A DNA stretch of 64,000 bases. Source: Fibrobacterota bacterium. Lineage in GTDB: Bacteria > Fibrobacterota > Chitinivibrionia > Chitinivibrionales > FEN-1185. Position 1 is the stretch's first letter. Every line of letters starts with the position of its first letter. Under the pieces are notes generated by a model. The model was given only the letters and a program-made list of their open reading frames with translations. It ran no database searches and was not told where the DNA came from. The stretch spans positions 1 to 64,000 of the forward strand of contig PLWQ01000040.1 in assembly GCA_003165595.1 (NCBI GenBank), read 5' to 3'. The translations under genes and the position numbers were made by a program. This document shows, one piece after another, positions 25,522 to 48,066 of the stretch.

Positions 25522-25547
25522 TCTAGTTCCCAAGTTTAAGAAATCCA

Positions 25548-26089: not shown

Positions 26090-27337
26090 TCAAGCTACGT
26101 TCAAAGGATTCTCATCTGAAAAAGGCAAAATAGACTTATTGACCAAAATTGTGGAGATGGCTATAATCCCGCAAATATACCAATAATGCGGATAATAGAG
26201 CACAGAGATAAAGCTTGCTGAAACGAAGAAGCCAGCAAGAGATGCTAATAGAGCCACGGAAAGATGTTTAATAAAAGCGCTGTTTTCCCCTTGGAAAAAT
26301 TGTGATGCATTCCTTAATCGAAAAATGTCGCGAAAATTGATAAAAAGGAGGAAAAGGTAAATAAATGTGCCGACAATTCCCGTCTCTGAAAGAAGTGTAA
26401 ACCAAAGTGAATGTGCTACCCTTCCCCACATACCACGGTGAAAATAGTCCGATTGGTAATCAGTGAATCTAACTTGAAAATTGTTTCCGCCAACTCCCAG
26501 AGGATTATGCAAAAACATTTGCCATCCTGCTTTCCAGGATTCTATTCTTTCTTTTGCGGTTCCATGTTGCGTGTCCGATGCTGTTGCTATTCTACTCCAG
26601 TATTTTTCTCCTGCAAAGAAATAGAGCGAAATTCCTACAAGTGATATTATTAATAGAGAAACCATCTTTTTCGGATTAAACAACCAGAAGATAAAAAGCA
26701 TTACAATAAGGCCTGTAAAACCACCACGGGATTTTCCAATTACATTTGCAGCAATTCCAAGAACCGCAATTGCCCCAAATAGAAATTTTTGCCAAAGGAT
26801 CTTTTGCGAAAGGAGAAGGGCGAAACAAATAGGAAGCCATGTATTGATATATAAGGAAAAATCATTTTCATCTAGAAATTGGGAGCCGGTTCCGCAACCA
26901 TGATGTCGTATGGCAAATTGTGCCTGATAGGCCATAAAAAGGACCGCGGAAAGCAGCATCGCTTTTAACCTCCTAAAAGAATCAATGCAACAGATAAATG
27001 ATAATATAAAGGGCAACATCATGAAAAGGGTTACAGCAGCATTAAATGCATAATGATGATTCACCGCAAAGGGAATCTCAAGGGTCAAAAGTATTACAAA
27101 AAGACGTATCAGACGAAGTTGAGGAATCTTCCAATTAATTAAACGGGAATTTGTTAATAAGAAGAAAATGAGGACAACCATGGTAATCATTCCAATACGC
27201 AAATAATCAAGCAACTTAATAGTGTCCTGTGGCCTTACATAATCGATGAACAGGAAGGTTATGGTTAAGACAAACCACGCGTTACTTGGCGTCGGCAGAG
27301 GTTCAGCCTCTGAGAGTTCGAATTGTTCCACGGACAT
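26090..27337 (-). CDS. O-antigen ligase/polymerase family membrane protein
   Basis: The 415-residue protein has about ten membrane segments and a Wzy_C-type signature: HNPLGVGGNNFQVRF, then a periplasmic loop ending VAHSLWFTLLSETGIVGT, with an Arg-rich loop between. The N-terminal DYVRPQD motif is shared with O-antigen-ligase-like proteins of EPS loci. It would act as the Wzy polymerase for flipped repeat units, or as a ligase. No other polymerase is present in the window, so the polymerase role is preferred. The ATG is preceded by AGAAAGCC, a weak ribosome site. Confidence 0.85.
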   Translation of the reverse strand: MSVEQFELSEAEPLPTPSNAWFVLTITFLFIDYVRPQDTIKLLDYLRIGMITMVVLIFFLLTNSRLINWKIPQLRLIRLFVILLTLEIPFAVNHHYAFNAAVTLFMMLPFILSFICCIDSFRRLKAMLLSAVLFMAYQAQFAIRHHGCGTGSQFLDENDFSLYINTWLPICFALLLSQKILWQKFLFGAIAVLGIAANVIGKSRGGFTGLIVMLFIFWLFNPKKMVSLLIISLVGISLYFFAGEKYWSRIATASDTQHGTAKERIESWKAGWQMFLHNPLGVGGNNFQVRFTDYQSDYFHRGMWGRVAHSLWFTLLSETGIVGTFIYLFLLFINFRDIFRLRNASQFFQGENSAFIKHLSVALLASLAGFFVSASFISVLYYPHYWYICGIIAISTILVNKSILPFSDENPLNVA

Positions 27338-28525: not shown

Positions 28526-29806
28526 CTATTTCTTGAGCATTGCTTTCCTGGCTACAAACTTGACACCGTGTAAGATGAAGAACAAGGTCCTCGATTGGGT
28601 CATCTGTCTGGTAATCGCCATCATAAAGAACCGACGCATAATACGGACCGTATTCACAGGAGTCGAATCGCTGTCATCGTACTTAAAGTCGGGAACAGGC
28701 CTTTTCAATTTCCTGGACAAAAGAAGGGTTGGGACAATTATTGAGGTGCAATCGCGCATCAACCCCTTTTGAGCATTGATAATCGTATCAAAATCCTTTT
28801 CCACAATGCTTATTGCGCCGGCTTGGGCCGCTTTTTGAATTGTTGCTTCTCCAGCGTCTGTCCTGGTTACGATGAGGGAAATCCCATTCCTGTCGTTCTT
28901 GAATTCCGGGAGCCATGCGTCGCCGAGTGAAATGTCTGCCATTTGCGAAGTCCTGTCAAGACACAAAGAACATCTCCATGGCTGCCAGCTCTCAAAATAA
29001 CTGTCGACATATTCGGAATAGGGAAGTTCCAGAGGCGCGGGATTATCCTTGAATTCAACCTTCATTTTTCCCGGCCACCCGCCGCCTCTATACCGGACAT
29101 TCTTTACGGTCCCAATTGGGTGTTTTCTGCTCTTTACTATCCATTTAGTAGCTTCCTGGCCTCTGCATCCGCCGCAAAGCAACCCAAGAGACAGAATGGA
29201 ACGTGTTTTCTTTAAGGGCGAGTATTTTCTGGCCTTGCAAAGTCCCTGTATATGGCATGGCAGGCCTATCCATAACAAAGAATTAAGGCCCGGAATCTGA
29301 TTGTCGCCCATTACTGAATTCGTGGCCACCGGACAATATTTGCTGCCGGTTGTTTTCAGTATGTCGTCTCTTGATTTGCAGATTATTGGTTTTGCATCAA
29401 AGGGTGACAAGGGGTCCATTTCCGCAGCAACAACCCCGTCGACCGCTTTGGTGTCCAGCATGAAGGACGCGAGTGCAGGAACTATGCCGCCGGACGAGGC
29501 GTTAAAGCATATCGAAGCGTCCGAGGAATAGCCGATATAGCATTTCTTCACTTTCCCAATTATTGATTTGACTATGCCGGTATTTCTCATCTCATCAGTT
29601 GAAAGTGTATTGTCCATCTGAAGACCGGGGCAGACCTTTAGGCATATCCCGCACTCTATGCATTTTTTCTCGTCAATGAACGGAATGTATGTCCTGTTGG
29701 AAATGGAATAGGTCATGGTAATTGCATGCGGCGCGCAGCAACCGAAGCACGTACCGCATCCCATGCACAATTTTTTCTTCACAACAGAAGTAATGGTGTT
29801 ATTCAC
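28526..29806 (-). CDS. Coenzyme F420 hydrogenase/dehydrogenase beta-subunit-like Fe-S protein
   Basis: The 426-residue protein has two 4Fe-4S cluster motifs near the N-terminus (CMGCGTCFGCC and CIECGICLKVCPG) and the FrhB-type domain (ASSGGIVPALASFML, TGSKYCPVAT, GLPCHIQGL, CGGCRGQEATKW, RCSLCLDRTSQMADISLGDAW). Proteins of this family often pair with polysaccharide pyruvyl transferases in capsule loci, as here, where that gene is just upstream. F420 use is not implied. A redox step on a sugar or on the transferred group is an inference. The start is GTG at 29806 without a clear ribosome site. Confidence 0.85.
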   Translation of the reverse strand: MNNTITSVVKKKLCMGCGTCFGCCAPHAITMTYSISNRTYIPFIDEKKCIECGICLKVCPGLQMDNTLSTDEMRNTGIVKSIIGKVKKCYIGYSSDASICFNASSGGIVPALASFMLDTKAVDGVVAAEMDPLSPFDAKPIICKSRDDILKTTGSKYCPVATNSVMGDNQIPGLNSLLWIGLPCHIQGLCKARKYSPLKKTRSILSLGLLCGGCRGQEATKWIVKSRKHPIGTVKNVRYRGGGWPGKMKVEFKDNPAPLELPYSEYVDSYFESWQPWRCSLCLDRTSQMADISLGDAWLPEFKNDRNGISLIVTRTDAGEATIQKAAQAGAISIVEKDFDTIINAQKGLMRDCTSIIVPTLLLSRKLKRPVPDFKYDDSDSTPVNTVRIMRRFFMMAITRQMTQSRTLFFILHGVKFVARKAMLKK

Positions 29807-29811
29807 AAGAA

Positions 29812-31119
29812 TTATTTACCGTAAGCATGGAATTTTTGCTTCAGCAACAGGGCCGCTTCGTTTGCCTCATTAAGGATTTTGGGAGCCAAAGCGGTCATTT
29901 CCGTTCTTGTCTTCTCGCGGTTATTCCATTCGTTGATAACTACCCTTTTCAAATCTTCCACATCCGGATTGTTAAGATTATAGACTTTTCTGCCGAACAT
30001 CTTATCAATAATATTGTGCATCCTGTGATCTTCCTCAACCGCCAATGCCATGCAGGGCGTTGCAACGGAAATTGCTCCAATCAAGGCATGGGCGCGCTCG
30101 GAGAGAACGAAATCACATTGTTTAATAACGCCTTTTAATTCCTGAGCGCCATATTCAGTTTCAATAAGCAAAACACGGTCACGGTTCTTATCAATATGCT
30201 GCATGATTTCCCGGGCAATTATTCTGTCATCATTGTGTGATACCGGGCCAATACAATGAGGCAAGAAAACAAAGAAAGCAGTTGTCTTGTCAAGCAAATG
30301 GTTTACTAATTCCGTCCAAAAGTTGATTCGGATCTGGTATTTAGCCTTCTCATTAAGAGCATTTGAAAATGATTTGTTAAATACTACTCCGCCCCGAACT
30401 GGAATGAGCCCGAAAATGGGAATGTCCTTCTTAAGAGGAACTTCTTCTGTTTTAAGAATTTCAATCGCCCGTTGGTCGGAGCAGGGTTTCATGAGCACGG
30501 CGGTGTCCGGATAAAGGTGCAGTTTGTTCCCTGGGATACCATGATCGACAAGAAATTGCTTTGTTCCGCTGTCCCGAACGACGTTGAGTATCGTATGATT
30601 AAGTGCGTATTGAAGGATCTTCCTATTCCACCCGGTAAAACAAGTTTTTGCGCCTGCTTCTGCGCCAACGCCATAAATTGCAACGGGAATGTGCATAATA
30701 TTTCCTGCAAGCACAAACCAGAACAGCTCGCAACATAGATTGCCATCATGCCCTATTAGAATCAGATGGGCTTTGGACAGATCGCGAAGCAGTTCGTCTT
30801 TGAAAAAGAAACGCGCACCCCGTTGGGACATTCTTGCCAGACATGAAAACCAGATTAGTCTGCCCCAACGTCTAATGTAGGCAAGTTTGCTAAAGGGCTT
30901 TGGAGCATCGCTATACATGTTGAGGACATTAAAGAAATCAGTTCCTCTCACCAGCTTGACATCATTGGAATAACGTTTGCGGTCGTCATCGTACCAAGGG
31001 GAATACAACGACAGGGACACATCGCCAAGAACAGACAAAGCGACTCTGATTCCTTCCAAAATAGCTTTTTCGCCCTTGTTGAGCGAAGGGATAGGCTCCG
31101 GAATTACGACGCGGATCAT
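29812..31119 (-). CDS. Polysaccharide pyruvyl transferase family protein
   Basis: The 435-residue enzyme is likely to add a pyruvate ketal to a sugar of the repeat unit, giving a negative charge. Family features are SLNKGEKAILEGIRVAL at the N-terminus, VAIYGVGAEAG, VVRDSGTKQFLVDHG, and the C-terminal FVLSERAHALIGAISVATPC. ATG at 31119 is chosen because GAGGAG lies just upstream; an earlier in-frame start at 31131 is less well placed. Its stop is five bases from the Fe-S gene start, so the pair is translated together. Confidence 0.85.
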   Translation of the reverse strand: MIRVVIPEPIPSLNKGEKAILEGIRVALSVLGDVSLSLYSPWYDDDRKRYSNDVKLVRGTDFFNVLNMYSDAPKPFSKLAYIRRWGRLIWFSCLARMSQRGARFFFKDELLRDLSKAHLILIGHDGNLCCELFWFVLAGNIMHIPVAIYGVGAEAGAKTCFTGWNRKILQYALNHTILNVVRDSGTKQFLVDHGIPGNKLHLYPDTAVLMKPCSDQRAIEILKTEEVPLKKDIPIFGLIPVRGGVVFNKSFSNALNEKAKYQIRINFWTELVNHLLDKTTAFFVFLPHCIGPVSHNDDRIIAREIMQHIDKNRDRVLLIETEYGAQELKGVIKQCDFVLSERAHALIGAISVATPCMALAVEEDHRMHNIIDKMFGRKVYNLNNPDVEDLKRVVINEWNNREKTRTEMTALAPKILNEANEAALLLKQKFHAYGK

Positions 31120-31153
31120 GTATCTCCTCAAACCGTCTTAACAACCTTTGGCC

Positions 31154-31779: not shown

Positions 31780-32646
31780 TCAGACAGCTCCGGGGGGCAC
31801 ATCAAATCTCTCTTCCATCCATTCGCTCACCAACGTCATCAATTTATTCCGTACGCTGTTTACCGTATAGATGTGGTCCGCCTCTTTGATGTATTTAAAG
31901 CAAACCTTATCTTTCAAATGGACCGAACGGAACATGTGTCTAAACTGGTTTGCGTAATTGTAATAAATCGGCACGCCGCCGGAATAAATGTAATAAAGCT
32001 CTGCGCCCCGGTCTATGAGCTGTTGTATTTCCCGGACAATTTTCTTTTTTTTGGGAAAGTCGCGGACATAAATTTCCGCAGGTTTGTTTAAGGCGATTCC
32101 GCTTGACTCGGTTCTTTTCAAAGTCTTTATAAGAGAAAACCATTTCTTCCCTAAAAACCGAAACGCTTTTTTAGGATTGATAAGTCCGGGCCCATAATCG
32201 TGAATATAAAACCCAAGTGTACGGTATGCGTAGCCATCAAGCAATACGATGCCTGCAACACGTTGGTCTTGCAGAGCAGCGGGGTGGGCGTAATCTGCTC
32301 CTGAGCAAAGACCGACAATAATGCAGTTTGCAGCACCGGTCGATTCTAGAAGAAAATTAATGGCTCCCTGTATGTCCAATAGTGCCTGATCGTCGTATTG
32401 CTTTTTTCCATCGTATTTAGCGCTGTCTCCCAAACCATGAAGATCGAACCGCAAACTTGCATGGCCTTTCTCCGCGATCATCCGGGCAAAATCGGTATTG
32501 AACCTGTTGAACCCGGTCCTGTGCAAAAAACCGGCGTTCATCAGCAAACAAGCGGGCTTTTCTGTGGTTACCGCTGCATGGTCGGGCTGGGTCAGGATAC
32601 CGGTAAGTTCTGAGCCTGGGCCAAAAAGTACAACGCGTTCAGTCAC
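31780..32646 (-). CDS. Alpha/beta hydrolase, exosortase-associated type, Cys nucleophile elbow
   Basis: The 288-residue protein has an alpha/beta hydrolase core: LMNAGFLHRTGFNRFNTDFA, RFDLHGLGDSAKY, and the nucleophile elbow IVGLCSGADYA. The elbow reads G-L-C-S-G, so Cys takes the position of the usual Ser. From memory, one of the two hydrolase types regularly seen in exosortase A loci has a similar GLCxG elbow. A possible acid/His end is EADHIYTVNSVRNKL. The GTG start overlaps the stop of the other hydrolase (GTGA). Release of a peptide from the neighbouring NRPS carrier is a plausible role but is inferred from position. Confidence 0.75.
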   Translation of the reverse strand: MTERVVLFGPGSELTGILTQPDHAAVTTEKPACLLMNAGFLHRTGFNRFNTDFARMIAEKGHASLRFDLHGLGDSAKYDGKKQYDDQALLDIQGAINFLLESTGAANCIIVGLCSGADYAHPAALQDQRVAGIVLLDGYAYRTLGFYIHDYGPGLINPKKAFRFLGKKWFSLIKTLKRTESSGIALNKPAEIYVRDFPKKKKIVREIQQLIDRGAELYYIYSGGVPIYYNYANQFRHMFRSVHLKDKVCFKYIKEADHIYTVNSVRNKLMTLVSEWMEERFDVPPGAV

Positions 32647-33353
32647 GACGGTTCCTTATTCATGCACGCCACTATTGGGCCTATTGCCGGGTTACCCAGA
32701 ATGACATGGTCCCACAAATTCCCATCTGCCCAGGTGTTTGGCGTCGATGCAAAGGAATGGACTGCGCAACGCTTTGGAATCTCATGTACCGAAATGTCAA
32801 GTGACGCGATTTCCTGTTGCAGTTCCTTTGAATAGGCGAACCCTAAAAATTCATTTTCGTTGGAAAGTCCTTTTGCGCAGGAAGAGGTTCTTTTTAGAAA
32901 ATCCGCGTGAAGCTCTTGTAATTCCTGTAAATATGCCTTTCCGGAATAGGTCGCGTCCCACAGCACGATGTCCTCGATATTTGATTTTGTCATTGCGGCG
33001 CGCCAGGCAAGCGTCGCGCCAAAACGAAGACCCGCGATGGCTATGACCTTTTCCCCGGAAATATTTTGCAGCTCTTTCAGGGCGACTTCGATGTTCGCGA
33101 GCCAGGTTTTGACCGTGGCTTCGCGCGGACTGCCCTGGGAATCGCCGTGGCCGGACCAATCGAACCGCAGTACATGACGTCCCGCCGCCGCAAGCTGTTC
33201 CGCTAATTGACGAATAGTATGATACGAACGCATATATTCGTGGCCGATGGGGGAACAAATCAAAACCGGACGCGTATACCCGTGCGGACCGCTTGGCGCA
33301 TGGTAAACGCCGAAACAACGAAGGGCATCGGTTCCAAAGAAGAACGGTCGCAC
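32643..33353 (-). CDS. Alpha/beta hydrolase-fold protein without catalytic Ser
   Basis: The 236-residue protein has an alpha/beta hydrolase fold: VLICSPIGHEYMRSYHTIRQ, VLRFDWSGHGDSQG, and the elbow IAGLRFGATLAWRAA. The elbow reads G-L-R-F-G, with Arg where Ser would be, so ordinary hydrolysis is doubtful. From memory, the second of the exosortase A-associated hydrolase types also has GLRLG here, so this may be a conserved pseudo-enzyme. Its GTG start is one base after the NRPS stop, and it overlaps the next hydrolase. The three genes are one tightly coupled unit. Confidence 0.75.
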   Translation of the reverse strand: MRPFFFGTDALRCFGVYHAPSGPHGYTRPVLICSPIGHEYMRSYHTIRQLAEQLAAAGRHVLRFDWSGHGDSQGSPREATVKTWLANIEVALKELQNISGEKVIAIAGLRFGATLAWRAAMTKSNIEDIVLWDATYSGKAYLQELQELHADFLKRTSSCAKGLSNENEFLGFAYSKELQQEIASLDISVHEIPKRCAVHSFASTPNTWADGNLWDHVILGNPAIGPIVACMNKEPS

Positions 33354-33354
33354 G

Positions 33355-36300
33355 CTATTGATTTTTCCTCTTGAATAATTTCCCGATTTTCTTTATCGAC
33401 GATGATTCGGTTTTTTCCGCTTTTTTCCGCAGGTCATGGTTTTCCGCGATCTGCTTGAGTGTATTGAGCATCATGGCGCGAGGGTGGATTTCCACGCCGG
33501 TCTCATTCTTGATTTTGGTAATCACGGACATGGAAAGAAGAGAATGGCCGCCGATATCGAAAAAGTTGTCCTGCGCCGATACTTTGTCAACGCGCAGCGC
33601 CTGTTTCCAGACACCGGCAAGGTATATTTCGCCGGCCGTGTACGGTTCGGACCGTGCGGGTTTGTTTTCGGCCGGGTTTTCCATGGGAACCTGTAACGAT
33701 TTCCGGTCTGTCTTCCCCGCCGGAGTCAGGGGCATTGCGTCCATTTCCACATAATGCTGCGGGACCATGTAATCGGGCAGAAACGATTTACAATGGTTCC
33801 GTATGTCGGTAACGGTCATGGAACCACGCTGCTTGAGAACATAAAAAGCGATCAGGCGCGTGTCACCAGGGGAGAATTCCTTACATACCGCAGCGCAGTG
33901 GCGAACATTCGCATGGGAAAGCATGACATTTTCGATTTCACCGAGTTCAATGCGGAAGCCCCTGATTTTAACCTGCGAATCGATCCTGCCCATGCATTCG
34001 AGCGATCCGTCATGCCTGTATCTGGCAAGATCTCCGGTTTTATAAATATTACCATCCGAAAAAGGGCTGGTCAAGAACCGTTGGCCGGTCAATTCCGGAC
34101 GGTTGTGGTATCCGAGCGCCAGTCCGGCGCCGCCGATATAAAGTTCGCCTAAAACACCTATGGGAACCGGTTGCATTGCGCTATCAAGAATATACATTGT
34201 CGTATTGGCGATTGGGCGGCCGATGAGGACCGGAGCTTGCGTACCGGTAATCCGGCAGCAGGAGGACCAGACCGTGGTTTCCGTAGGCCCGTACATGTTC
34301 CACAGTTCCTTGACCTTTGGGAAAAGATCGCGAAGCAAATCATGCGGCAGGGGTTCGCCGCCGCACAGCGCCTTCAGGGCCGGCGAGCCGTTCCATCCCG
34401 CCGCGCACAGCAATCGCCAGGTGCTGGGCGTTCCCTGCATCACCGTTACATTGGATGTTGCGATCAGCTCGGCCAACTGCATCGCGTCACGTGATGTTTC
34501 GTGGTCCACGATAACGGTGCACGCTCCGCAGGACAGGGGAAGCAGAATTTCCAGGACCGAAATGTCGAACGATAATGTCGTGACCGCCATGACAATGTCC
34601 GTTGGAGCGATGCCGGGTTCCCTTGTCATGGAGCATAAAAAATTAACAACTGCGCTATGAGGAATGCGGACTCCCTTGGGCTTACCCGTTGAGCCGGACG
34701 TATAAATGATATATGCCGTTTGAGCTGGGGACACGGAAATTGCCGCACAAGAAGGCATCCCGCTTTCCAGGGAATGTACAGTGAGGACATGTATCGTGCT
34801 GCGTGCAAACGTAACTGCGGACATGGTCGTTTCGTCCGAGACGATCAATTTCAATCCGGCATCTTCTATCATATAGGCAAGGCGCTCTGTGGGATAATTG
34901 GGATCCAGCGGAACATAGGCTGCGCCGCTTTTAAGAATACCTACGAGCGCGGCAACCATATCGAACGACCGTTCCATGCATAGGCCAACAAGGTCGCCGC
35001 CTCTAACGCCATTCCTTAGAAGCATTGATGCGACAACAGTAGACGCCTCGTCTAATTGCTTATACGAATATTTCCGGCCACCGCAGGCAACGGCAACCGC
35101 AGACGGGGTTTGCGCCGCCTGTGAAGTAAACCATTGGTGCGCGCACATGTCGCGCGGAAATGGACGTTTTGTATCGTTCCATTGATCGAGAATAACGGAG
35201 CGTTCGTTTTGGGAAAGCATTGGGATGGAACAGTTCGGCGTATCGGCGTTTGCAGCCACGGCCATGGCAATGTTTGCAAAATGCGCGGCCATTCGCTCAA
35301 TGGTGTCGTGGTCAAAAAGATCCACGCTATATTCGAACATACAGGCAAGGTTTTCCTGCTCCGGCCATATATACAGCGACAAATCGAATTCGGTTGCTCC
35401 CCGGTCAACCGGTAAAAACCGCATCGAAGTTCCATTGGCGCTTTGGGCCTGCATGGAATAATTCTCAAATGCGAACATGACCTGGAAAACGGGCGCATGT
35501 CCAAAGTCGCGCTTTGGTTTTATGATTTCAACAAGCGAATCAAAGCTTATTGAATGGTGAATGATTCCATCCCTGACAACATTGTCTATGTTCCGTACCA
35601 GTTGCCTAAAGGTCAAATCGTTCTTACCGCGAATGCGCATCGGCGCCATGTTCAGAAAAAAACCAAATAGGTTTTCCAGGTCCGGACTTTCGCGGTTTGC
35701 GGTCGGCGAACCGATAATAATATCGGAATGGCCGGAATACCTGCTCAAAAGGACATAAAAAACACCAAGGAGCGCGGTAAAAATTGTTGTTCGCTCGTCG
35801 CGGCACAGGCGTTCCAGGCCCGAGCGGACTTCCGCAGGCATCTTGAAAAACACCGATGAACCGGCATAGGAAACCGAGGAAGGACGCGGGCGGTCCGCGG
35901 GAAGTTCGAGTATCGGCAAGGGCATGCTGAGTTGTTGTTCCCAGTATTCCCGCGTTGCCTGACCAATGACCTGGGGCCGAAGGGACTGCCATGCCGTATA
36001 ATCGGCAAAACGGCAGGGCATGCCGGGAAGGTCCGGCTGAGTTGTGTTTGTCAATGAATAGTAGAAATGGGAGAAATCGCGGACAAAAACTCCCATGGAC
36101 CATCCGTCGGACACGATATGGTGCGTCATGACAGCCATGATTCGCCTGTCCTGGGCTATCCGAACGATCAAGATCCGGAGCAATGGTCCGGCGGAAAGAT
36201 CATAGGGCCGCATGGAGCGCGTTATGATCTCTTTTGTCCAACAGTCGCGAGCGCCGGAAGCGCAATCGATTGTTTCGAATTCGAAAAGCATCGTGGGATG

Positions 36301-38403
36301 AATGCGCATGGTCGGGCCGGATTCATTGGTTTCGAAAGTCGCACGAAGCGCATCGTGCCGCTCCACCACACGCTCAATTGCGGTATGGGCGAGGCCCTGG
36401 TCGAATGGGCCGGAAATTTCAAAACAGGTGGAAAGATTGAACGCGCGGCTTTCCGGTTCCAACCCGCATAAGAACAACAGTCGCGACTGGGATGGGGACA
36501 GCGGAATTCCAATCGTTTGTTCCGAGCAAACAGGCCCGGCCGCGGTTTGAGACAGGCCGGTCCTTTTCATTTCCAATAATAATTTGTCAATGGTGGCGGC
36601 ATTATAAAAAACGGAAAGCGGAACATCGACCCCGAACGACTCTTTCACGCGGGACACGAGGTGTATTGCAAGAAGCGAGTGACCGCCTTTTTGGAAAAAA
36701 TCATCATCGATTCCAAGGGACGAGACGTCAAGCAATCGCTTCCAGATTTCCGCCATTTTTATTTCGTCTGATGTTTGAGGCGCAATGGATTGTTTGTTTG
36801 CCACGGATAAGAATGCTTTTTGCTGCAATGTTTTCCGGTCTGTTTTTCCGGAAGCGGTAAGGGGCATTGCATCCAATTCGACAAAATAGTGCGGCACCAT
36901 GGATCCGGGTAAAAACGATTTGCAATGATCACGCAATTCGGTTTCGGATAGTAAACCGCGTTGCTGTAAAACGAAATAGGCGACGAGCCGCAGGTCATCC
37001 TTTGCGAATTCCCTGCAAAGCACCGCGCAGTGGCTGATTTCATTTCTGGCAAGCATCACATTTTCTATTTCTGCAAGCTCAATGCGCTGGCCCCGGATTT
37101 TAACCTGATTGTCTTTGCGGCCGATGTATTCGATGGCGCCGTCGGACAAATACCTGCATATGTCGCCGGTCCTGTAAAGCCGCGCGCCGTGCGCATTTGA
37201 AAACGGGTCCGGGAGAAAAACTTCTTTTGTCAGGTTCGGCAGGTTCACATAGCCGCGCGCGACGCCGATGCCGCCGATGTAAAGCTCGCCTTCGATGCCC
37301 ACCGGTACCGGGCGCATAGCAGGGTCAAGGATATAAAGCCGGATATTGGCTATGGGCCGGCCTATGGGTACGATTTGCCTTTCATCGTTCTTGCGGCATT
37401 CCCAAAACGACACATCGACTGACGCTTCGGTAGGCCCGTACAGGTTGAAAAGCGGGCAAGTTACTCGTGAGAAGAAACGTTGCTGCAGAGCATAGGTAAG
37501 CGCTTCACCGCTGCAAATCACCCGTTTAAGGGAATGCAGTTCCGGCACGTCGCCCTGCTCAAGAAAAACACGCAACATGGACGGCACGAAATGCGCGATA
37601 GTGATTGCATTGTCCCGTATCGCGGCAACAAGGTACGACGGATCGCGATGGCCTCCGGGCTCCGCGATCACAAGGCGCGCGCCGGTCATGAGCGGCCAGA
37701 AGAATTCCCAGACCGATACATCGAATGAATAGGGCGTTTTTTGCAGTACACTGTCCGCCTCATTCAGTACAAAGCGATCTTGCATCCACAACAAACGATT
37801 TACAATACCGATATGAGTATTGATCACGCCTTTGGGAGTACCGGTTGATCCGCTTGTGTAAATCACGTACGCGGCATTGTGCGGGCCGGCAACGGAAGGA
37901 AGGTCCGAATCGGGAAACCCGGCCAACGCGTTACTGTTTATGGTGTAAACAAAAACGTTTTTAATCTGCCGGAGTTTGGTTTCGCACGGTGCATGTGTAA
38001 GGACCAATGAAGCACCTGAATCCTTCAGGATGTACCCTCGGCGGTCTTCCGGATACTCCGGATCGATGGGAACATACGCGCCTCCGGCTTTTAAGACCGC
38101 CAACAAGGCGATCACCATTTCCAAAGACCGCTCGAAGCACACGCCGACCAAGGATTCGGCTCCAACTCCGTTTTTGCGTAAAAAATGCGCCAGGCGATTG
38201 GCGCAATCGTTAAGCTGTTTATACGTTAGTGGTTGATCGCGAAATAAAAGCGCCACGCCATCGGGTGTGCGGCGCACCTGGTCTTCGATGAATTGGTGCA
38301 AAGGCCGGTTGAGCGGATAATCCGCAAAGGTATCGTTCCAGGCCAGAGGGACCAACCCTCCGGCCGGAACAGTTCCGGATACGACATCGCCGTTACTATT
38401 CAC
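33355..38403 (-). CDS. Two-module NRPS, A-T-C-A-T, predicted Ser-Gly
   Basis: The 1682-residue enzyme has: adenylation domain 1 (~25-530; YTSGSTGTPKG, NLYGPTEAS, YRTGD); carrier domain 1 (GGHSLL, Ser576); condensation domain (~630-1060; HHIVSDG at 761-767); adenylation domain 2 (~1085-1570); carrier domain 2 (GGHSLL, Ser1621); and a basic tail. It has no thioesterase or reductase. Aligned by eye to the GrsA PheA pocket, A1 reads D228 V229 W232 H271 I296 S298 L321 V329 D330 K520, the serine type. A2 reads D1280 I1281 L1284 Q1323 L1346 G1348 M1370 V1378 W1379 K1564, the glycine type. Start GTG follows GGAGAGAAG and overlaps the preceding glycosyltransferase by eight bases. Carrier activation could come from the Sfp-type gene at 53839. 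Confidence 0.9.
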   Translation of the reverse strand: MNSNGDVVSGTVPAGGLVPLAWNDTFADYPLNRPLHQFIEDQVRRTPDGVALLFRDQPLTYKQLNDCANRLAHFLRKNGVGAESLVGVCFERSLEMVIALLAVLKAGGAYVPIDPEYPEDRRGYILKDSGASLVLTHAPCETKLRQIKNVFVYTINSNALAGFPDSDLPSVAGPHNAAYVIYTSGSTGTPKGVINTHIGIVNRLLWMQDRFVLNEADSVLQKTPYSFDVSVWEFFWPLMTGARLVIAEPGGHRDPSYLVAAIRDNAITIAHFVPSMLRVFLEQGDVPELHSLKRVICSGEALTYALQQRFFSRVTCPLFNLYGPTEASVDVSFWECRKNDERQIVPIGRPIANIRLYILDPAMRPVPVGIEGELYIGGIGVARGYVNLPNLTKEVFLPDPFSNAHGARLYRTGDICRYLSDGAIEYIGRKDNQVKIRGQRIELAEIENVMLARNEISHCAVLCREFAKDDLRLVAYFVLQQRGLLSETELRDHCKSFLPGSMVPHYFVELDAMPLTASGKTDRKTLQQKAFLSVANKQSIAPQTSDEIKMAEIWKRLLDVSSLGIDDDFFQKGGHSLLAIHLVSRVKESFGVDVPLSVFYNAATIDKLLLEMKRTGLSQTAAGPVCSEQTIGIPLSPSQSRLLFLCGLEPESRAFNLSTCFEISGPFDQGLAHTAIERVVERHDALRATFETNESGPTMRIHPTMLFEFETIDCASGARDCWTKEIITRSMRPYDLSAGPLLRILIVRIAQDRRIMAVMTHHIVSDGWSMGVFVRDFSHFYYSLTNTTQPDLPGMPCRFADYTAWQSLRPQVIGQATREYWEQQLSMPLPILELPADRPRPSSVSYAGSSVFFKMPAEVRSGLERLCRDERTTIFTALLGVFYVLLSRYSGHSDIIIGSPTANRESPDLENLFGFFLNMAPMRIRGKNDLTFRQLVRNIDNVVRDGIIHHSISFDSLVEIIKPKRDFGHAPVFQVMFAFENYSMQAQSANGTSMRFLPVDRGATEFDLSLYIWPEQENLACMFEYSVDLFDHDTIERMAAHFANIAMAVAANADTPNCSIPMLSQNERSVILDQWNDTKRPFPRDMCAHQWFTSQAAQTPSAVAVACGGRKYSYKQLDEASTVVASMLLRNGVRGGDLVGLCMERSFDMVAALVGILKSGAAYVPLDPNYPTERLAYMIEDAGLKLIVSDETTMSAVTFARSTIHVLTVHSLESGMPSCAAISVSPAQTAYIIYTSGSTGKPKGVRIPHSAVVNFLCSMTREPGIAPTDIVMAVTTLSFDISVLEILLPLSCGACTVIVDHETSRDAMQLAELIATSNVTVMQGTPSTWRLLCAAGWNGSPALKALCGGEPLPHDLLRDLFPKVKELWNMYGPTETTVWSSCCRITGTQAPVLIGRPIANTTMYILDSAMQPVPIGVLGELYIGGAGLALGYHNRPELTGQRFLTSPFSDGNIYKTGDLARYRHDGSLECMGRIDSQVKIRGFRIELGEIENVMLSHANVRHCAAVCKEFSPGDTRLIAFYVLKQRGSMTVTDIRNHCKSFLPDYMVPQHYVEMDAMPLTPAGKTDRKSLQVPMENPAENKPARSEPYTAGEIYLAGVWKQALRVDKVSAQDNFFDIGGHSLLSMSVITKIKNETGVEIHPRAMMLNTLKQIAENHDLRKKAEKTESSSIKKIGKLFKRKNQ

Positions 38404-39628
38404 GAAATTCTTCTCTCCGGGTTTTGCTTACTAATTCATCGATCAGCCCGCATAGCTTTTTGCCCATTGCTTCCCAGGAATACTTTTTTGCAAGGGTTAT
38501 GCAATTACTTATATAGGAAGTATAGCATTCCTCGGATGAATCGAGAAGGGTTTCAACTGCCGTGATCAAGTCGGTTTTCGATTCCGCGATGATCCCGTGT
38601 TGGCCGGAGACCATGTCGATGCCCGCAGCACCTTCTGCATTGGTGACCACCGGCGTTCCCACGCTCAAGGACTCCAGGAACTTGTTCTTGATGCCGCCGC
38701 CGGAAAACATGGGCGCAAGGAACAGCTTTGCATCTGTCAAGAATGGATAGATGTCTTCGACTTCACCCACGAAATCGACACCCTCGATGCCGGCGATTTT
38801 TTCCTTCAGCGAAGCGGATGAATTGCGGCCGATGATGCGAAACCGGGCATTCGGATATTTCTGATGAATAGAGGGCCAGATATTTTCAAGGCTGTACAGG
38901 AGGGATGTGATATTCGGGCGATAATCGAGGAAGCCCAGGAACACAACAACGGCGGACTTGAACTTGTTGAGGCAAAATCCGGCGTCAACAGTATTGGCCG
39001 GGACAGACGTGCCGTTTGGAAGAACAAGGATCTTGTTTTTCGGCAGGGTCCTGGAAATAGAGGCGGCGTCGGCGGATGTCGTTGCTAAAAGATAGACATC
39101 GTGAGGCAGGAAAGCACGATGGAATTTGTTAACATAGGCTACATCAAAACGGTTCTTGAGCAGTTGCACCGGGGAGGAAATGTTCCTGATGCCCGCCTCA
39201 ATATGCCTTACCGTGGAATCGCAGAGGTCGCACAGTCTTATTGCTGTTTTATCAAGGTCGCCGTATCCGGAAAAGGCATCGAGCCCGAAATAGACGGACG
39301 CATCGTATGCGCCGGCGTCCTTTCCAAGCAGCTCCCGGAAACCCGGATAAAAACAGCAGTCGGGAACAAAGACTTTTGTCCGGTCCGGTCTCAGGAACGA
39401 CCGCAGGTAACCAAGATTGGAAAAAGCCGGACGGAAAGGAATCTCCGGGGAATTGCCGCAAAGTTCGGCTTCGGGAAACCGGGCGCGCAGCAATGCCGTG
39501 TTGCCGGGCGCGAAAATTGACAATCGATATTTCCTGGAAAGCTCGTGCAGAAACCCCATGTACCGCACCGGCCACCCGGAGGTCATTCCCCTAAAAGGCT
39601 CATTGAGAACGATCTTGAGTTTGTGCAC
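38396..39628 (-). CDS. Glycosyltransferase, GT4 family (exosortase-locus type)
   Basis: The 410-residue enzyme has an N-terminal EPFRGMTSGWPVRYMGFLHE, a middle RLCDLCDSTVRHIEA, and the GT4 C-terminal domain: AVVVFLGFLDYRPNITSLLY, FRIIGRNSSASLKEKIAGI, VEDIYPFLTDAKLFLAPM, GGGIKNKFLESLSVGTPVV. The closing GGGIKNKFLE...GTPVV is the form typical of the stp-like sugar transferases of exosortase loci. Its 3' end overlaps the NRPS start by eight bases, so the two are co-translated. That link suggests the peptide is made with the glycan and not separately. Confidence 0.85.
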   Translation of the reverse strand: MHKLKIVLNEPFRGMTSGWPVRYMGFLHELSRKYRLSIFAPGNTALLRARFPEAELCGNSPEIPFRPAFSNLGYLRSFLRPDRTKVFVPDCCFYPGFRELLGKDAGAYDASVYFGLDAFSGYGDLDKTAIRLCDLCDSTVRHIEAGIRNISSPVQLLKNRFDVAYVNKFHRAFLPHDVYLLATTSADAASISRTLPKNKILVLPNGTSVPANTVDAGFCLNKFKSAVVVFLGFLDYRPNITSLLYSLENIWPSIHQKYPNARFRIIGRNSSASLKEKIAGIEGVDFVGEVEDIYPFLTDAKLFLAPMFSGGGIKNKFLESLSVGTPVVTNAEGAAGIDMVSGQHGIIAESKTDLITAVETLLDSSEECYTSYISNCITLAKKYSWEAMGKKLCGLIDELVSKTRREEFRE

Positions 39629-39637
39629 AAATGTTCC

Positions 39638-40168
39638 CTAATGAAGTTCGATTTTCCCGACGTCAAACACCGTGGGCGTGTCTGCTTTGCCGGTAAAAAA
39701 AACCACCAGGCTGATGCGGGAAATGTCAAGACGCCTGTTCGCGGGCGACGTCAGGCCGCCCGAAAGCGGCAATTCGCAGGCTGTCCAGGTTGTATCGACA
39801 TCGAATGGTTTTTCGAACCTGTTGGCATACACATATTCGCCCCGGCCGTCCCAGATGGAAAGCACAAAGTGAGAACCCTGCCTCCGCGCCCGGGTCGTGA
39901 TGCCCAGCGTCTTGTAGTGCCCCCAGTTTCCGTTGAGCCACGGTAGCGTGATTCCAGGATAGGCTTTTTTGGGGAAAGCCGTGACTTCAAGGAAATCGCC
40001 GGATCGGGAATCGTGTCCCTTGGAAAATGTCTGATGGCATTCCCATTCCGGCAGTTTTGCCGTGTCGAAGTGAGAATAGTCCGCAACAGTGCACTCCACC
40101 CTATGGTTGCACGAGCAGCAGAGGAGGTACAGCGCGATTACCAAGAGAAGGTTCCCTGAGACGTTCAT
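39638..40168 (-). CDS. Putative lipoprotein, carbohydrate-binding-like
   Basis: The 176-residue protein has a short hydrophobic signal (LLLVIALYLLCCSC). A Ser-Cys pair near residue 19-20 could be a weak lipobox. The rest is predicted beta-rich: WLNGNWGHYKTLGITTRARR, SHFVLSIWDGRGEYVYANRF, TWTACELPL, ISRISLVVFFTGK, a pattern of jelly-roll carbohydrate-binding domains. I do not recognise the family. It ends nine bases before the glycosyltransferase start at 39628 in the same direction, so it is in the operon and may hold or guide the polymer in the periplasm. Confidence 0.55.
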   Translation of the reverse strand: MNVSGNLLLVIALYLLCCSCNHRVECTVADYSHFDTAKLPEWECHQTFSKGHDSRSGDFLEVTAFPKKAYPGITLPWLNGNWGHYKTLGITTRARRQGSHFVLSIWDGRGEYVYANRFEKPFDVDTTWTACELPLSGGLTSPANRRLDISRISLVVFFTGKADTPTVFDVGKIELH

Positions 40169-40521: not shown

Positions 40522-41364
40522 TTATCTCGATATCGCCTTTGACAAATGAAACACCATTATCTCCGGCGGCACGCCAAACCGAATCGGCAGAAAACTTTCC
40601 CCAACGCCGCTCGTGACGGCCATAACTGTTTTGTCCAGATGAAATACGCCGCTCACATGCTGCTGGTCGACTGCGGGGTCGAACCTGTGGAGAAACGGCC
40701 TTGCGAAGAACACCTGGCCGCCATGCGTGTGGCCGGAGCAGATAAGATCGAACCGGTGTATCTGGTTGGCCGTCAATTTGTACCCGCTGTGCAGCAGAAG
40801 GATATTATACCACGGCGGCGGGGCCGGTTGCAAAACAAGCGTGTCATCGAGTTTCGTCACCGGATCGTCCAAACCCACTATCCGGAAGCCGAGATCGGGA
40901 AGGTCGAGGACTTGGTTTCGCAGGATGGAGCCGGGAATGGTTGCGAGGCGGTCCTGGGGGTAACGCAGAAAACAATAGATGCACTGCCGCGATCTGCATA
41001 TGTCCGTGTTTCCCAACACCATCACGGTCTTTCCATACCGGGCGATCTCGTTTAATTTGTCAATTGAATATTGCGTAGGAGCGTGGTACGAGGAAAAATC
41101 GCCGCCGATGAGAATGAGGTCGGGGCGGATTCTGCCGAGCTCGCGAAAAAGTTTTTGTTCGACCCCTTTTCGCATCGGAAGATGGAGATCGGCCATAAAG
41201 ACGATGGTGCGGTTTTTCGCAAGGGACGGTACTGTCGCGTCTACGGTTCTCACCACCATGAAGTCGGGCTCGATTTTCCAGGCATAGAGCAGGACAAGGA
41301 CCGGAAAAAGGCCGCATGCCGCAACAAACAATCGAAGCGGCTTATTTGAGATAATTCTGAACAT
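40522..41364 (-). CDS. Membrane-anchored metallophosphoesterase
   Basis: The ~280-residue protein has an N-terminal membrane anchor (LFVAACGLFPVLVLLYAW) and a full calcineurin-like metal site: FMADLHLP (D, H), IGGDFSS (D), LGNTDICRS (N with D in the GNH position), LLLHSG (H) and SGHTHGGQ (H, H). It resembles the YkuE/LpxG-type enzymes that hydrolyse UDP-diacylglucosamine or related phosphoesters. ATG at 41364 (MFRIISNK) is chosen; it overlaps the exosortase 3' end by 23 bases, so it is translated with it. Its role in the EPS pathway is unknown. Confidence 0.8.
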   Translation of the reverse strand: MFRIISNKPLRLFVAACGLFPVLVLLYAWKIEPDFMVVRTVDATVPSLAKNRTIVFMADLHLPMRKGVEQKLFRELGRIRPDLILIGGDFSSYHAPTQYSIDKLNEIARYGKTVMVLGNTDICRSRQCIYCFLRYPQDRLATIPGSILRNQVLDLPDLGFRIVGLDDPVTKLDDTLVLQPAPPPWYNILLLHSGYKLTANQIHRFDLICSGHTHGGQVFFARPFLHRFDPAVDQQHVSGVFHLDKTVMAVTSGVGESFLPIRFGVPPEIMVFHLSKAISR

Positions 41365-42874
41365 AGGGGGATATCGCAGCCGCAAAGGAGGTCATTGTTT
41401 CTTCGACCTGCCGGGAGTCGCCGCTTCCCGCGGAAACGGCGACAAACGCGGCGTTGTTGCGTTTTTCCTTCACTGTGGTGAGGATGACGGCCTTTCTTGC
41501 CCCGGCGACGGTTGGATATATTCTTCCGTCAACCACGCTCCAGCTCAGGGTAGAGGCCGGCTGTTTCCCAAAGGTCTCGTCCAAGAGCCGTGCCTTGACA
41601 AGGGAAGAAGGTGCAACCGGAATTTCAACCCACTTTTCGCTGTTTCCAAAGGAATTGAATTGTACGCTCGACATTCTCTTCCAGGTGTTCTGGACGTCGA
41701 ACCGGGCGATAAAAAGGGTGATCTCCGCGCCGCTTTCGCCATGGTAGGAGCGGCACAGGACTGCTTCCGGCTTTCCCATGTAGAACGATATCATGCCGCA
41801 CAGCGGAGACCCGGACCCCGGTTCCGCGTCCCATCCGGCAAGATGAGATGGGAAATCCGCTAGGCTCTCCGCGTAGTGCACGGGTCGGGCTTCCGCGAAT
41901 TTGGCTGCGGCAAGCGTAAGCGCAAGCATGCAAAAGCAGCAAATCCAGGCCGGGATAATTGACGTTAGCGAATCCCGGTTCCCGATGATACCGTCGGGAA
42001 CCGCGGCCGGAGCATTGCCTTGCTTCCTTTCGATGTGCGCAAACAGCAGCGAGCAGAGGTACAGGAACAACAGCGCCAGCGGGTAGATAAACGGCATCCG
42101 GAGAATTTCGTGCGGACCGTGGATGGCGCTCTTGAGCCCGTTGTAGTTCCAGAGCGTCACCAGAACAATGCGGATCGTGTTGACAAACAATGCAAAGGGC
42201 AGCGTAAGGGCCAAAAGCGCGATGCGCGGCCACAGCGACTTGTGCATCATCACGCCGAGCGGAATTGCAAATGCGATGAGCGCGGTAAGCTGGCCTGCGC
42301 CGCTGCATTCCGACGCGACTTCCAGGACCGTGTACGGCAACCGCAGAAACCTGCCGTCGCGGAGAACCTGCAGCCCGCCGGCGTTCACCAGAACCTGGGT
42401 GAGCGTTGCCGAGGCGTATTGCATAAACACCGCCACGGGCGCCATGGCCCTCTCCACAAACGAGGTGGTGAGCACGAGGTATCCGAGCGGGAACAACAGC
42501 GCCTTTAGCCATGCGTTCCCTAAAAGCAACGATATGCACCCGGCTGCAAGGAAGAGCAGGCCGGCTTCGATGAAGAAATCGATGATGCATACCTTCCACA
42601 GCCAGAAGGCGAGGCACCCTGCGGCCACAAGCGCAATCCCCGCGCCGTACGACGGCCGCGGGCGCAAACGGAACAACTCCTTCCGCCTGCTCCAGGCGAA
42701 ACAGGCGCTCACCAGAACAATCAGGAATCGCCAATACTGTTCGAGGCGCAGCCATTGAAGGGAAAGCACCACTGTCCCGCTTGCAAAGATGTAGCCGAGC
42801 ATTGCGATAACGCAAGCGACGCAAAAGGCAAATCCAAGAAAGGCGGGTTTGGCCCGATCGGCGCGAAGATTCAT
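41342..42874 (-). CDS. xrtA: Exosortase fused to EpsI domain (XrtA type)
   Basis: The ~510-residue inner-membrane protease/transpeptidase acts on PEP-CTERM proteins. The N-terminal part has about eight membrane segments with the exosortase catalytic set: Cys in EVASECSGAGQLTALIA, Arg in NTIRIVLVTLW and His in IHGPHEILRMPFIYPLAL. The C-terminal ~200 residues are an EpsI domain (LAGWDAEPGSGSPL ... VLCRSYHGESGAEITLFIA ... SFGNSEKWVEIP), located outside the membrane. This fused form is known for XrtA. The start is uncertain: ATG at 42874 has a weak ribosome site, while TTG at 42904 has AAAGGA too close to it. It is divergent from prsK. The cargo proteins are at 1118, 47269 and 49820. Confidence 0.9.
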   Translation of the reverse strand: MNLRADRAKPAFLGFAFCVACVIAMLGYIFASGTVVLSLQWLRLEQYWRFLIVLVSACFAWSRRKELFRLRPRPSYGAGIALVAAGCLAFWLWKVCIIDFFIEAGLLFLAAGCISLLLGNAWLKALLFPLGYLVLTTSFVERAMAPVAVFMQYASATLTQVLVNAGGLQVLRDGRFLRLPYTVLEVASECSGAGQLTALIAFAIPLGVMMHKSLWPRIALLALTLPFALFVNTIRIVLVTLWNYNGLKSAIHGPHEILRMPFIYPLALLFLYLCSLLFAHIERKQGNAPAAVPDGIIGNRDSLTSIIPAWICCFCMLALTLAAAKFAEARPVHYAESLADFPSHLAGWDAEPGSGSPLCGMISFYMGKPEAVLCRSYHGESGAEITLFIARFDVQNTWKRMSSVQFNSFGNSEKWVEIPVAPSSLVKARLLDETFGKQPASTLSWSVVDGRIYPTVAGARKAVILTTVKEKRNNAAFVAVSAGSGDSRQVEETMTSFAAAISPYVQNYLK

Positions 42875-43012
42875 ACCCGAATAAAATACATGATTGACGA
42901 TCAAAATCCTTTACATGGAAAAACTATAAATTATTTTAATTGACTAACCATACGCCCGTCGCGTCCTCGCGGTTTTCGTTGTTCTTCCACCACTCGCCCG
43001 GCGCCGGAAGCT

Positions 43013-45160
43013 ATGTCTTTTTATCTTTTCCTGCTGCTGTCATTGGCGCTCAACGGCGTCTTGTGTCTGTTCGTTCGCTTTCGGCGCTACCGGTTGTCCC
43101 TTTTCCTGCCGTTATTCGGGCTGGCTTTCGTTTTCCCGCTTCAATCCTTTTTAGGGTCTGTTTTTTTTGACAGCGCACCGGGCGTGGGTGACGCTCCGTG
43201 GATACTGCGGTTGTATTGTTCTTCCTGCCTTGCTTCAACCGTGCTGCTCGCCTGGTTCATTCAGAACTTTTTCCGGGCGGGTGAGTCCAGACCGGCGGCC
43301 TCTTTTATGCGGCCCCCGTATTCCTTCGCCTTGCTCCTCGAAGCATGCGGCATACTCGCCGCCGCCGCCTGCCTGGTATTCCCGTTCTGCCGCCAGTTGA
43401 GGGTCACCACGGGCGTGCTTGCCGTTATCAATCCGCTTGGCGACGGAATTGTTTCCGTGCAGCTTGTTATTGTCGTGTATTCCATTTATGTTCTCGAGAA
43501 CACCTACCGTTTTGCGCAGGAGTACCAGAGAAAGATTGCACGGCTCAGTTTCCTGGGTTTGCTCGTCCTGCTCCTTTTCCAACTCTATTTTGCCGGGCAC
43601 TTGCTTTTGTATAGATTCCTTGACCGGAATATGGTTGTTGTCGCAGCCGTTGCATACGGCGTCACCTACCCCGTAATGCTTGCCGGCCTGCTGCGCTACC
43701 GGCTCGGCACGGAACGGATTTCCATTCCGCGCAACGCGGTTTTTTCCACGGTATCGCTCCTTCTTTCGGGCGCGGCTTTTACAGGCGTGGGGCTCACGGT
43801 GATCGTCTTCAAGAAATTGCATCTGGACTTCGGGTATTTCGAACAAACCCTGCTTGTCTTTACGCTCTGTCTGTTTGCCGTCCTCACCATCGGTTCCGGG
43901 ACCATGCGAAAGAGGATAGCGACTTTTATGAACAATTACTTCTATACGCAGAAGTTCGATTACCGGGAGCAGTTCTATAATCTTCACCGTTCCTACATGA
44001 CCGGTGAAAACGTTGAAATGTCCCTCACCGAAATAATCGAGAACATGAAATACGCGGCTGCCGCCGACGACGCCTTTATCTTCCTGCTCAATGATGCGGA
44101 CGGGAATCTGTACATGCACCAGAACAAGGAGAGTTCCACGGCGCCCGACTGCGTCATTGGCGGAGACAGCCGGATTGTCCGTGAATTGTCGAAATCCCTT
44201 CTGCCAATGGAGATCAAACCGGGGCCGTCCTCCGCCGCGGGCAAGGAGGATGAGACAGACGAGCTCCTGCACTCCAGGTTAAAGGCGGATATTCTTTTTC
44301 CGGTGGTCAACCGCGGTCAGCTGCTCGGCATCCTTGCGCTGCGCACCGGGAAAACGGCCCGGATCGGCATCGAGGAAACCGCCCTCATCGAGGCGTTTGC
44401 CAATTCCATCGGCGACGTGCTGTTTAAGAACAAGGTCCTCACCGAACGGGTGGAACGCAAGCAGTTCGAGTCGTTTTCCCATCTTTCGTCATTCATCGTG
44501 CACGACATCAAAAACCAGACCGCCACGCTGTCGCTGCTGGTGGGAAACGCGGGGAAGAACCTCAACAATCCCGATTTCCAGAAGAGCCTGCTCCTGTCCC
44601 TGCAGAGCTGCGCGTCCAGCCTCACCGCCCTTGTTGACAAACTCAAGTCGCCGCCCAGGCCCGATGCGCTCACGCTTCGGCTGCTTTCGGTGAACGCGGT
44701 GGTGGACCGGGTGATCGAGAATTCCGGTATGGCAACACTCGACACGGTCGCGCTCGTTCTGGAGAAGGGCGCCGTTCCCGACATCGAATGCGACGAAGAG
44801 TCGCTGTTCTACACGGTGAAGAACCTTGTGGTCAACGCCCTTGAGGCTATGAACAGGCGGGGAACCCTTTCGATCGTTACGGGGCCGCTTGTTCCGTCGG
44901 ATTCCAGGGTCCTCGACAGGTTCGACGTGGGCACGGATTTTTTGGCCCCGTTTCGCATCTATATCATGGTTTCGGATACCGGCTGCGGCATGACGCGGGA
45001 TTTTATGGAGAAGAAGCTGTTCCATCCGTTTGCCACCACAAAGGACAAGGGAATCGGAATAGGGCTGTATCAGTGCAAGACACTCATAGAAAAAATGAAT
45101 GGCAAAATCCTGTGCCGGTCGGAAAAAGGAAAAGGGTCGGATTTCTGCATTTTGTTGTAG
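43013..45160 (+). CDS. prsK: PEP-CTERM system histidine kinase PrsK
   Basis: The 715-residue sensor kinase has about eight membrane segments in residues 1-290 and a GAF-like domain at about 330-480 (DDAFIFLLNDADGNLYMHQN ... LFPVVNRGQLLGILALRTG). The atypical H-box SSFIVHDIKNQTATL follows, with phospho-acceptor His near 497. The ATPase domain has LVVNALEAMN (N-box), VSDTGCGMT (G1) and GIGIGLYQCKTLIEKMNGKI (G2). This HDIKNQ form with a multi-helix sensor is that of PrsK. The ATG follows GGAAG. PrsR lies 400 bases downstream. The signal sensed is unknown. Confidence 0.9.
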   Translation: MSFYLFLLLSLALNGVLCLFVRFRRYRLSLFLPLFGLAFVFPLQSFLGSVFFDSAPGVGDAPWILRLYCSSCLASTVLLAWFIQNFFRAGESRPAASFMRPPYSFALLLEACGILAAAACLVFPFCRQLRVTTGVLAVINPLGDGIVSVQLVIVVYSIYVLENTYRFAQEYQRKIARLSFLGLLVLLLFQLYFAGHLLLYRFLDRNMVVVAAVAYGVTYPVMLAGLLRYRLGTERISIPRNAVFSTVSLLLSGAAFTGVGLTVIVFKKLHLDFGYFEQTLLVFTLCLFAVLTIGSGTMRKRIATFMNNYFYTQKFDYREQFYNLHRSYMTGENVEMSLTEIIENMKYAAAADDAFIFLLNDADGNLYMHQNKESSTAPDCVIGGDSRIVRELSKSLLPMEIKPGPSSAAGKEDETDELLHSRLKADILFPVVNRGQLLGILALRTGKTARIGIEETALIEAFANSIGDVLFKNKVLTERVERKQFESFSHLSSFIVHDIKNQTATLSLLVGNAGKNLNNPDFQKSLLLSLQSCASSLTALVDKLKSPPRPDALTLRLLSVNAVVDRVIENSGMATLDTVALVLEKGAVPDIECDEESLFYTVKNLVVNALEAMNRRGTLSIVTGPLVPSDSRVLDRFDVGTDFLAPFRIYIMVSDTGCGMTRDFMEKKLFHPFATTKDKGIGIGLYQCKTLIEKMNGKILCRSEKGKGSDFCILL

Positions 45161-45559
45161 CGGCAATTGAACCTGGCAAACCCGGTTCACCGCAAAGGCG
45201 CAAAGTACGCAAAGGTAATAAGAGAGAGCAGAAAATGCAATCGCCAGGGTGTGGCATGAATTGTGAGCACCCGGAAACGGTGTTCTTGACAATAGTTCTT
45301 TTTGACTCACCCAACCCCTCTCGACTTCACCCCGCCCTATCCCGCGGGGAGAGGGAGAAAATATGGTAAGAAGATAATTGTGGAGAGGGGCTCTACAAAA
45401 CACTCGTTTAACTCCCCTTCTCCGATAGGAGAAGGGGCAGGGGGATGAGGTCACAACAAAGAAAGAAAAGAAATCTTTCTTTACTGCAAAATCCTTTTGA
45501 AAAGTTCAGCACAAAGATTTTCTTCTTCCCGATACGGGATGCAGGGGGCGATCGGAAAT
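45161..45559. other. Intergenic region between prsK and prsR
   Basis: About 400 bases with no gene. It contains CT-rich direct and inverted words including the hairpin at 45414-45437. No -24/-12 or clear sigma-70 promoter is evident by eye. Confidence 0.5.
45414..45437. repeat. Perfect hairpin CCCCTTCTCC/GGAGAAGGGG
   Basis: Ten-base perfect arms around a GATA loop, in the prsK-prsR gap. No T-run follows, so a processing or repeat element is more likely than a terminator. Confidence 0.7.
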
Positions 45560-48009: not shown

Positions 48010-48066
48010 TTGAACCTCCGGAAAAAGTTTGAATTTCGAGTTTAATTTTCCTTTGCCGGTATTTAA

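Follow-up and report, generated by a model that had tools for sequence, protein, structure and literature searches.

Why would an exosortase-bearing EPS locus carry a nonribosomal peptide synthetase (NRPS), and which protein takes over its product when the synthetase ends without a thioesterase (TE)? The question is raised by a 64,000-nucleotide stretch of contig PLWQ01000040.1 from a Fibrobacterota bacterium (hereafter the window), in which the NRPS gene and its putative partners are arranged as follows:

31780-32646, minus strand: hyd1, an alpha/beta hydrolase, TIGR03100-like, with a Cys114 elbow (GLCSG), Asp137 after b6, and His258
32643-33353, minus strand: hyd2, an alpha/beta-hydrolase-fold protein, TIGR03101-like, with Arg at the nucleophile position (GLRFG), a probable pseudoenzyme
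33355-38403, minus strand: NRPS lacking a TE, predicted A(Ser)-T-C-A(Gly)-T (from translation, Pfam and pocket alignment), ending in a short basic tail (SSSIKKIGKLFKRKNQ)
38396-39628, minus strand: GT4 glycosyltransferase, TIGR03087-like, below cut-off, overlapping the NRPS gene by 8 bp
53824-54525, plus strand: Sfp-type 4'-phosphopantetheinyl transferase, the genome's only one of Sfp size

The NRPS open reading frame encodes 1682 amino acids from a GTG start with no internal stops, and its A, T and C domains are intact, with the core motifs HHIVSDG, GGHSL (twice) and YGPTE (twice) readable in the translation. Pfam content comprises two AMP-binding, one Condensation and two PP-binding domains, and Pfam and local profiles together give the order A-T-C-A-T that a preliminary description of this DNA had proposed. 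Neither Pfam nor the local profiles find a Thioesterase domain in 33355-38403, as had also been claimed. The tight packing of the operon described there is likewise borne out: the 8-bp overlap with the GT4 gene is real and a single base separates the NRPS gene from hyd2, while hyd2 and hyd1 overlap by 4 bp.

Alignment of the A domains to the ten pocket positions of GrsA PheA, using as reference a PheA fragment that matches 1amu except for one or two end residues, gives the codes DVWHISLVDK for A1 and DILQLGMVWK for A2. These re-read codes predict serine and glycine, respectively, the substrates first assigned by eye. The solved A domains closest to A1 are Txo1/Txo2 and fuscachelin FscH, with EntF lower, all serine-activating; those closest to A2 are AB3403 4zxh and 5u89, both glycine-activating. 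The predicted product of the NRPS is a Ser-Gly unit.

The genome encodes a single condensation domain, that of this NRPS, and no second NRPS. Three genes of the PPTase family are present, and only the gene at 53824-54525, which had been placed at 53839 and differs solely in the choice of start codon, has the size of Sfp. Since the locus thus holds the genome's sole condensation domain and its sole Sfp-size PPTase, the NRPS and Sfp are very probably partners. Outside the NRPS domains, no further carrier domain or TIGR03098-type ligase is found in the window; TIGR03098 matches fall on the NRPS A domains only (424 of 592 bits), and the window contains neither a stand-alone ACP nor a TIGR03099 decarboxylase.

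The surroundings of these genes, which also include several glycosyltransferases, are those of an EPS and exosortase locus:

11828-15087, minus strand: asparagine synthase B and a PaaK/F390-type AMP ligase
24073-25698, minus strand: Wzx-type flippase
26090-27337, minus strand: Wzy/O-antigen ligase-like polymerase
28526-31131, minus strand: FrhB-like protein and polysaccharide pyruvyl transferase
39638-40168, minus strand: protein of unknown function, also present close to XrtW in a genome of the same family
40522-41385, minus strand: metallophosphoesterase, YaeI/LpxG-like, with a 44-bp overlap with the exosortase gene
41342-42904, minus strand: exosortase, XrtW-like, with an EpsI-like C-terminal domain; the genome's only exosortase
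43013-45160, plus strand: PrsK-like histidine kinase
45497-46933, plus strand: PrsR-like sigma-54 response regulator
47269-48078, minus strand: PEP-CTERM cargo protein
51377-53713, plus strand: PrsT-like TPR protein
57443-58558, plus strand: FemAB family XrtA/PEP-CTERM-associated protein, TIGR03019, above cut-off
58489-59769, plus strand: DegT-type sugar aminotransferase
62421-63308, minus strand: XrtA-type polysaccharide deacetylase, below cut-off

The locus had been compared with known exosortase A loci. An exosortase is indeed present, but it scores 315.7 bits against XrtW (NF038142; cut-off 425) and 104.7 against XrtA (TIGR03109; cut-off 208), which makes XrtW, although its cut-off is not reached, the nearest family, and not XrtA. 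Similarly, the two "exosortase-associated hydrolases" are clear relatives of TIGR03100 and TIGR03101 but remain far below both cut-offs (66 of 168 bits for hyd1 and 87 of 203 for hyd2). This is not an exosortase A system, and we would no longer use that label for it. Other components straddle their thresholds (FemAB 282 against a cut-off of 260, PrsK 278/300, deacetylase 249/276, PrsT 127/312), and PrsR is assigned by domain content only. We note that an FrhB-type F420/Fe-S protein lies beside the polysaccharide pyruvyl transferase within the EPS locus (28526-31131), and that an AAA_14/DUF4143 ATPase gene (54567-55691) sits between the Sfp and GT2 genes in an insertion-like manner. We rejected the idea that the PaaK/F390-type ligase at 13729-15087 represents the usual ligase, since it belongs to another family and is conserved in TE-type loci too; within the order it recurs at several exosortase/NRPS loci (those of G021, G022 and G028).

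That release from the NRPS needs another protein had been deduced from the absence of a TE. This absence stands, and a good candidate that had not been named is the adjacent Cys hydrolase, hyd1. Its nucleophile elbow, G-x-C-S/A-G, carries Cys in 23/23 sequences, and a His near the C-terminus is present in 23/23. The same position in hyd2 is occupied by Arg, Lys or Gly in 22/23 sequences and by Ser in the remaining one. Ser115 was rejected as the hyd1 nucleophile, since the G-x-Nu-x-G elbow places Cys114 there (compare GLCAG in Azospirillum). In a structural model of hyd1, of moderate confidence (pLDDT 69), the elements follow one another as in alpha/beta hydrolases, the Cys coming directly after strand 108-113 and the His after 248-253; the hyd2 model was poor (pLDDT 55) and was left out of the analysis. 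A Cys nucleophile would suit the uptake of a thioester via transthioesterification and its later handover to an acceptor, the route of PHA synthase and Cys-type TEs. Foldseek matches to the hyd1 model are mostly esterases and lipases, plus the thioesterase DcsB; with such neighbours and a model at pLDDT 69, hyd1 may simply hydrolyse the thioester, either as a proofreader or to set Ser-Gly free.

The hydrolases linked to an NRPS are distinct from the others. In all four NRPS-linked hyd1 proteins an Asp follows b6 and none follows b7, whereas this holds for 0/19 of the others, which show the reverse. NRPS-linked pairs form a single clade (support 100/99), in the concatenated tree too, although these trees are rooted at the midpoint only, contain long branches, and include four such pairs, three of them from one order.

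Relatives within the phylum link the presence of hyd1 to the absence of a TE. Among 168 genomes of the phylum, strong hyd1 matches occur in three (the window genome, G029 and G021), and a hyd1 search of genome contigs matched only two same-order MAGs (JAAYPC01 and JAAYEB01). All three strong-hyd1 genomes carry a TE-less, Gly-terminated line together with hyd2-hyd1, the junction in G021 spanning two contig ends. The order in G029/JAAYPC01 is FkbH-T protein, TE-less KS-AT-T-C-A(Gly)-T, hyd2, hyd1, and this line is 49% identical to the window NRPS over C-A2-T2. We note that the FkbH-domain protein with carrier, KS-AT-T-C-A(Gly)-T and hyd2-hyd1 at L054:3-8496 would constitute a glyceryl-malonyl-glycine line instead of one for Ser-Gly. 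In G021/JAAYEB01, KS-AT-T-C-A(Gly)-T without TE stops at one contig end and hyd2-hyd1 start at another, so that adjacency is inferred; its contigs also carry homologs of the window's FemAB, aminotransferase, Wzy and GT genes. The TE-less lines have a short basic C-terminal tail in common, which may serve as a dock for hyd2/hyd1.

In contrast, the related NRPS lines of G037, G022 and G028 end in a Thioesterase domain, and no hyd1 was found in these three genomes. They resemble the window NRPS in their C-A-T end module (with a Gly code in G022 and G028), and the lines of G022 and G037 share its EPS/exosortase surroundings, the G022 line lying ~6 kb from an exosortase. At the level of sequence, TE and hyd1 thus complement each other among the NRPS lines of the order. 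This complementation holds per assembly line, since G021 carries further NRPS genes elsewhere, one of them with a TE. G037 also encodes a stand-alone A(Ser)-T protein that matches the first part of the window NRPS at ~50% identity, which makes the window gene look like a version of this line that lacks the PKS module. In G022 and G028, a DUF362 protein and a GNAT adjoin the TE-type NRPS (L059:11603-13788, L061:6495-8623), forming a conserved block near FemAB or an exosortase.

Neither the NRPS nor the hydrolases were found in the closest genomes, G001 (same genus) and G002 (same family, 79% complete). The module is therefore unevenly distributed, and the XrtW system can do without it. Co-occurrence of homologs with exosortases, which had been proposed as a check, is seen in part: the closest homologs lie in EPS loci, and an exosortase accompanies some but not all of them.

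A wider view of the hydrolase pair comes from a tblastn survey of plasmids, which yielded 21 loci, several of them near-duplicates and some with partners up to ~11 kb off. The pair is arranged as hyd2-then-hyd1, in tandem or fused, in 21/21. Eight loci carry an amino acid:[ACP] ligase, four an AMP ligase with ACP, and one an NRPS; at the other 8/21, no carrier-loading gene is in view. With the window exosortase as query, no exosortase was detected in the 21 loci. The NRPS case is a Variovorax paradoxus plasmid (CP063167), where A-T-KS-AT-T-aminotransferase is followed by C-A(Gly-like)-T-C-T without TE, then by Sfp, hyd2 and hyd1, and then by Wza, Wzc, a sugar transferase and GTs. As this EPS locus has the pair and an NRPS with no exosortase detected, the module is tied to EPS rather than to the exosortase.

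Comparison with named systems places the window NRPS among the loaders of this module. The exosortase A-associated set (TIGR03098 AMP ligase, TIGR03099 decarboxylase, TIGR03100/TIGR03101 and ACP) is whole at a Shinella locus, where TIGR03101 and TIGR03100 both match one fused protein and the adjoining ligase reaches 567 of 592 bits on TIGR03098. Like this set, the window has an EPS locus in which the hydrolase 1/2 pair adjoins an enzyme that adenylates and a carrier domain, but it differs in combining adenylation, carrier and peptide bond formation in one NRPS, in its XrtW-like exosortase, and in hydrolases that fall short of the family cut-offs. Similarly, the amino acid:[carrier protein] ligase operons of Azospirillum and Mycetohabitans make a carrier-bound amino acid beside hyd2-hyd1, fused there, but use an aaRS-like loader, one ACP and an acyl-CoA dehydrogenase for a single amino acid rather than Ser-Gly, and their hyd1 has its acid after b7. 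The V. paradoxus VAI-C locus shares with the window a TE-less line, Sfp, hyd2 and hyd1 (in that order in Variovorax) and an EPS setting, and differs in a longer PKS-NRPS with other substrates, a Wza/Wzc locus and no exosortase seen. The ligase and ACP sets that accompany the pair in other bacteria thus support the earlier proposal that the NRPS stands in for a ligase plus ACP.

Taken together, these data lead us to a mechanism to which we give an even chance: hyd1, with hyd2, would act in trans as a Cys acyltransferase/thioesterase that moves Ser-Gly from T2 to the EPS glycan. In this mechanism, (I) Sfp would prime both T domains, (II) A1 would load Ser and A2 Gly, (III) the C domain would form H-Ser-Gly-S-T2, with the Ser amine free because the NRPS has no starter acylation or formylation domain, (IV) the hyd1 Cys would take over the T2 thioester in place of an integral TE, assisted by hyd2 as a catalytically empty partner, and (V) the dipeptide would be joined through an amide or ester bond to a sugar of the repeat unit as the neighbouring glycosyltransferases assemble the EPS at the cytoplasmic face. 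Both hyd1 as the release or transfer enzyme and an EPS sugar as acceptor are inferred; an amine acceptor could come from the DegT-type aminotransferase or the deacetylase of the locus. The plasmid pairs with no loader in view, the uneven distribution among close relatives and the small number of NRPS-linked pairs speak against this mechanism. In our best model, the Ser-Gly handover is one instance, with an NRPS as loader, of something broader: elsewhere the same two hydrolases would act on amino acids or acyl groups held by carriers that amino acid:[ACP] ligases or AMP ligases of the TIGR03098 type have charged.

The alternative that survives best, though we consider it unlikely, is that the product is never attached to anything: Ser-Gly, cyclo(Ser-Gly) or some derivative would be a free small molecule, perhaps with a signalling role, with hyd1 as a releasing or proofreading type II thioesterase and a regulatory or accidental position in the EPS locus. 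Free-amine dipeptidyl thioesters can cyclise, hyd1 is esterase-like, and the related NRPS/PKS lines of the order use ordinary TE domains. Against this stand the occurrence of an NRPS and the hydrolase pair in EPS loci of two phyla, the tight coupling of the NRPS and hydrolases to a GT gene (intervals of -8, 1 and -4 bp), and the pairing of the hydrolases with loaders of single amino acids or acyl groups.

An improbable variant is that Ser-Gly forms an amine-bearing linker on a glycan or lipid and that the exosortase joins PEP-CTERM proteins to the Ser amine, much as sortase A uses the pentaglycine bridge. The A-T start predicts a free N-terminus, the FemAB-family protein exceeds its cut-off, both of the genome's above-cut-off PEP-CTERM tails lie in the window (1814-1888 and 47278-47352), and a transpeptidase role of exosortases has been discussed (PMC11980579); yet the NRPS-pair module occurs in Variovorax with no exosortase detected, and most exosortase-bearing relatives lack this NRPS. 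Two weak PEP-CTERM-like tails below the cut-off were also seen, at 49832-49903 of the window and at G000:C34:72647-72706. A cross-phylum reading as a kind of glycan decoration not described before, in which peptides of TE-less NRPS and PKS-NRPS lines are fixed on EPS by hyd1 and the pseudoenzyme hyd2, the free amine being the PEP-CTERM attachment point in exosortase loci, we regard as distinctly doubtful. Cys hydrolases can act on many acceptors, and the dipeptide might be placed on a protein or lipid instead of EPS, for example by acylating a lipid amine, but the neighbourhoods in the window, G021 and Variovorax consist of EPS genes and such a placement is very improbable.

In sum, the earlier interpretation is partly supported, now on a broader comparative footing, and what is new here is an NRPS as loader in an EPS module of carrier plus hydrolase pair. 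A partial literature search turned up no previous description of an NRPS within an exosortase locus and nothing useful on Fibrobacter with PEP-CTERM or on Cys-TE aminolysis; the 2006 PEP-CTERM paper mentions neither the ligase nor a hydrolase, and, as far as we found, a role for the two "exosortase-associated hydrolases" has so far not been described. The same pair occurs with three modes of carrier loading and apparently replaces the TE in NRPS loci, which suggests a testable role: the unloading of carrier-bound groups in EPS assembly. If this is true, non-ribosomal peptides join the list of EPS decorations, and a use is suggested for amino acid:[carrier protein] ligases.

On plasmids L088, L082, L090, L094 and L103, we observe a conserved operon of amino acid:[ACP] ligase, ACP, acyl-CoA dehydrogenase, DUF1839, GH2 and fused hyd2-hyd1, which may point to such a use for orphan amino acid:carrier ligases.
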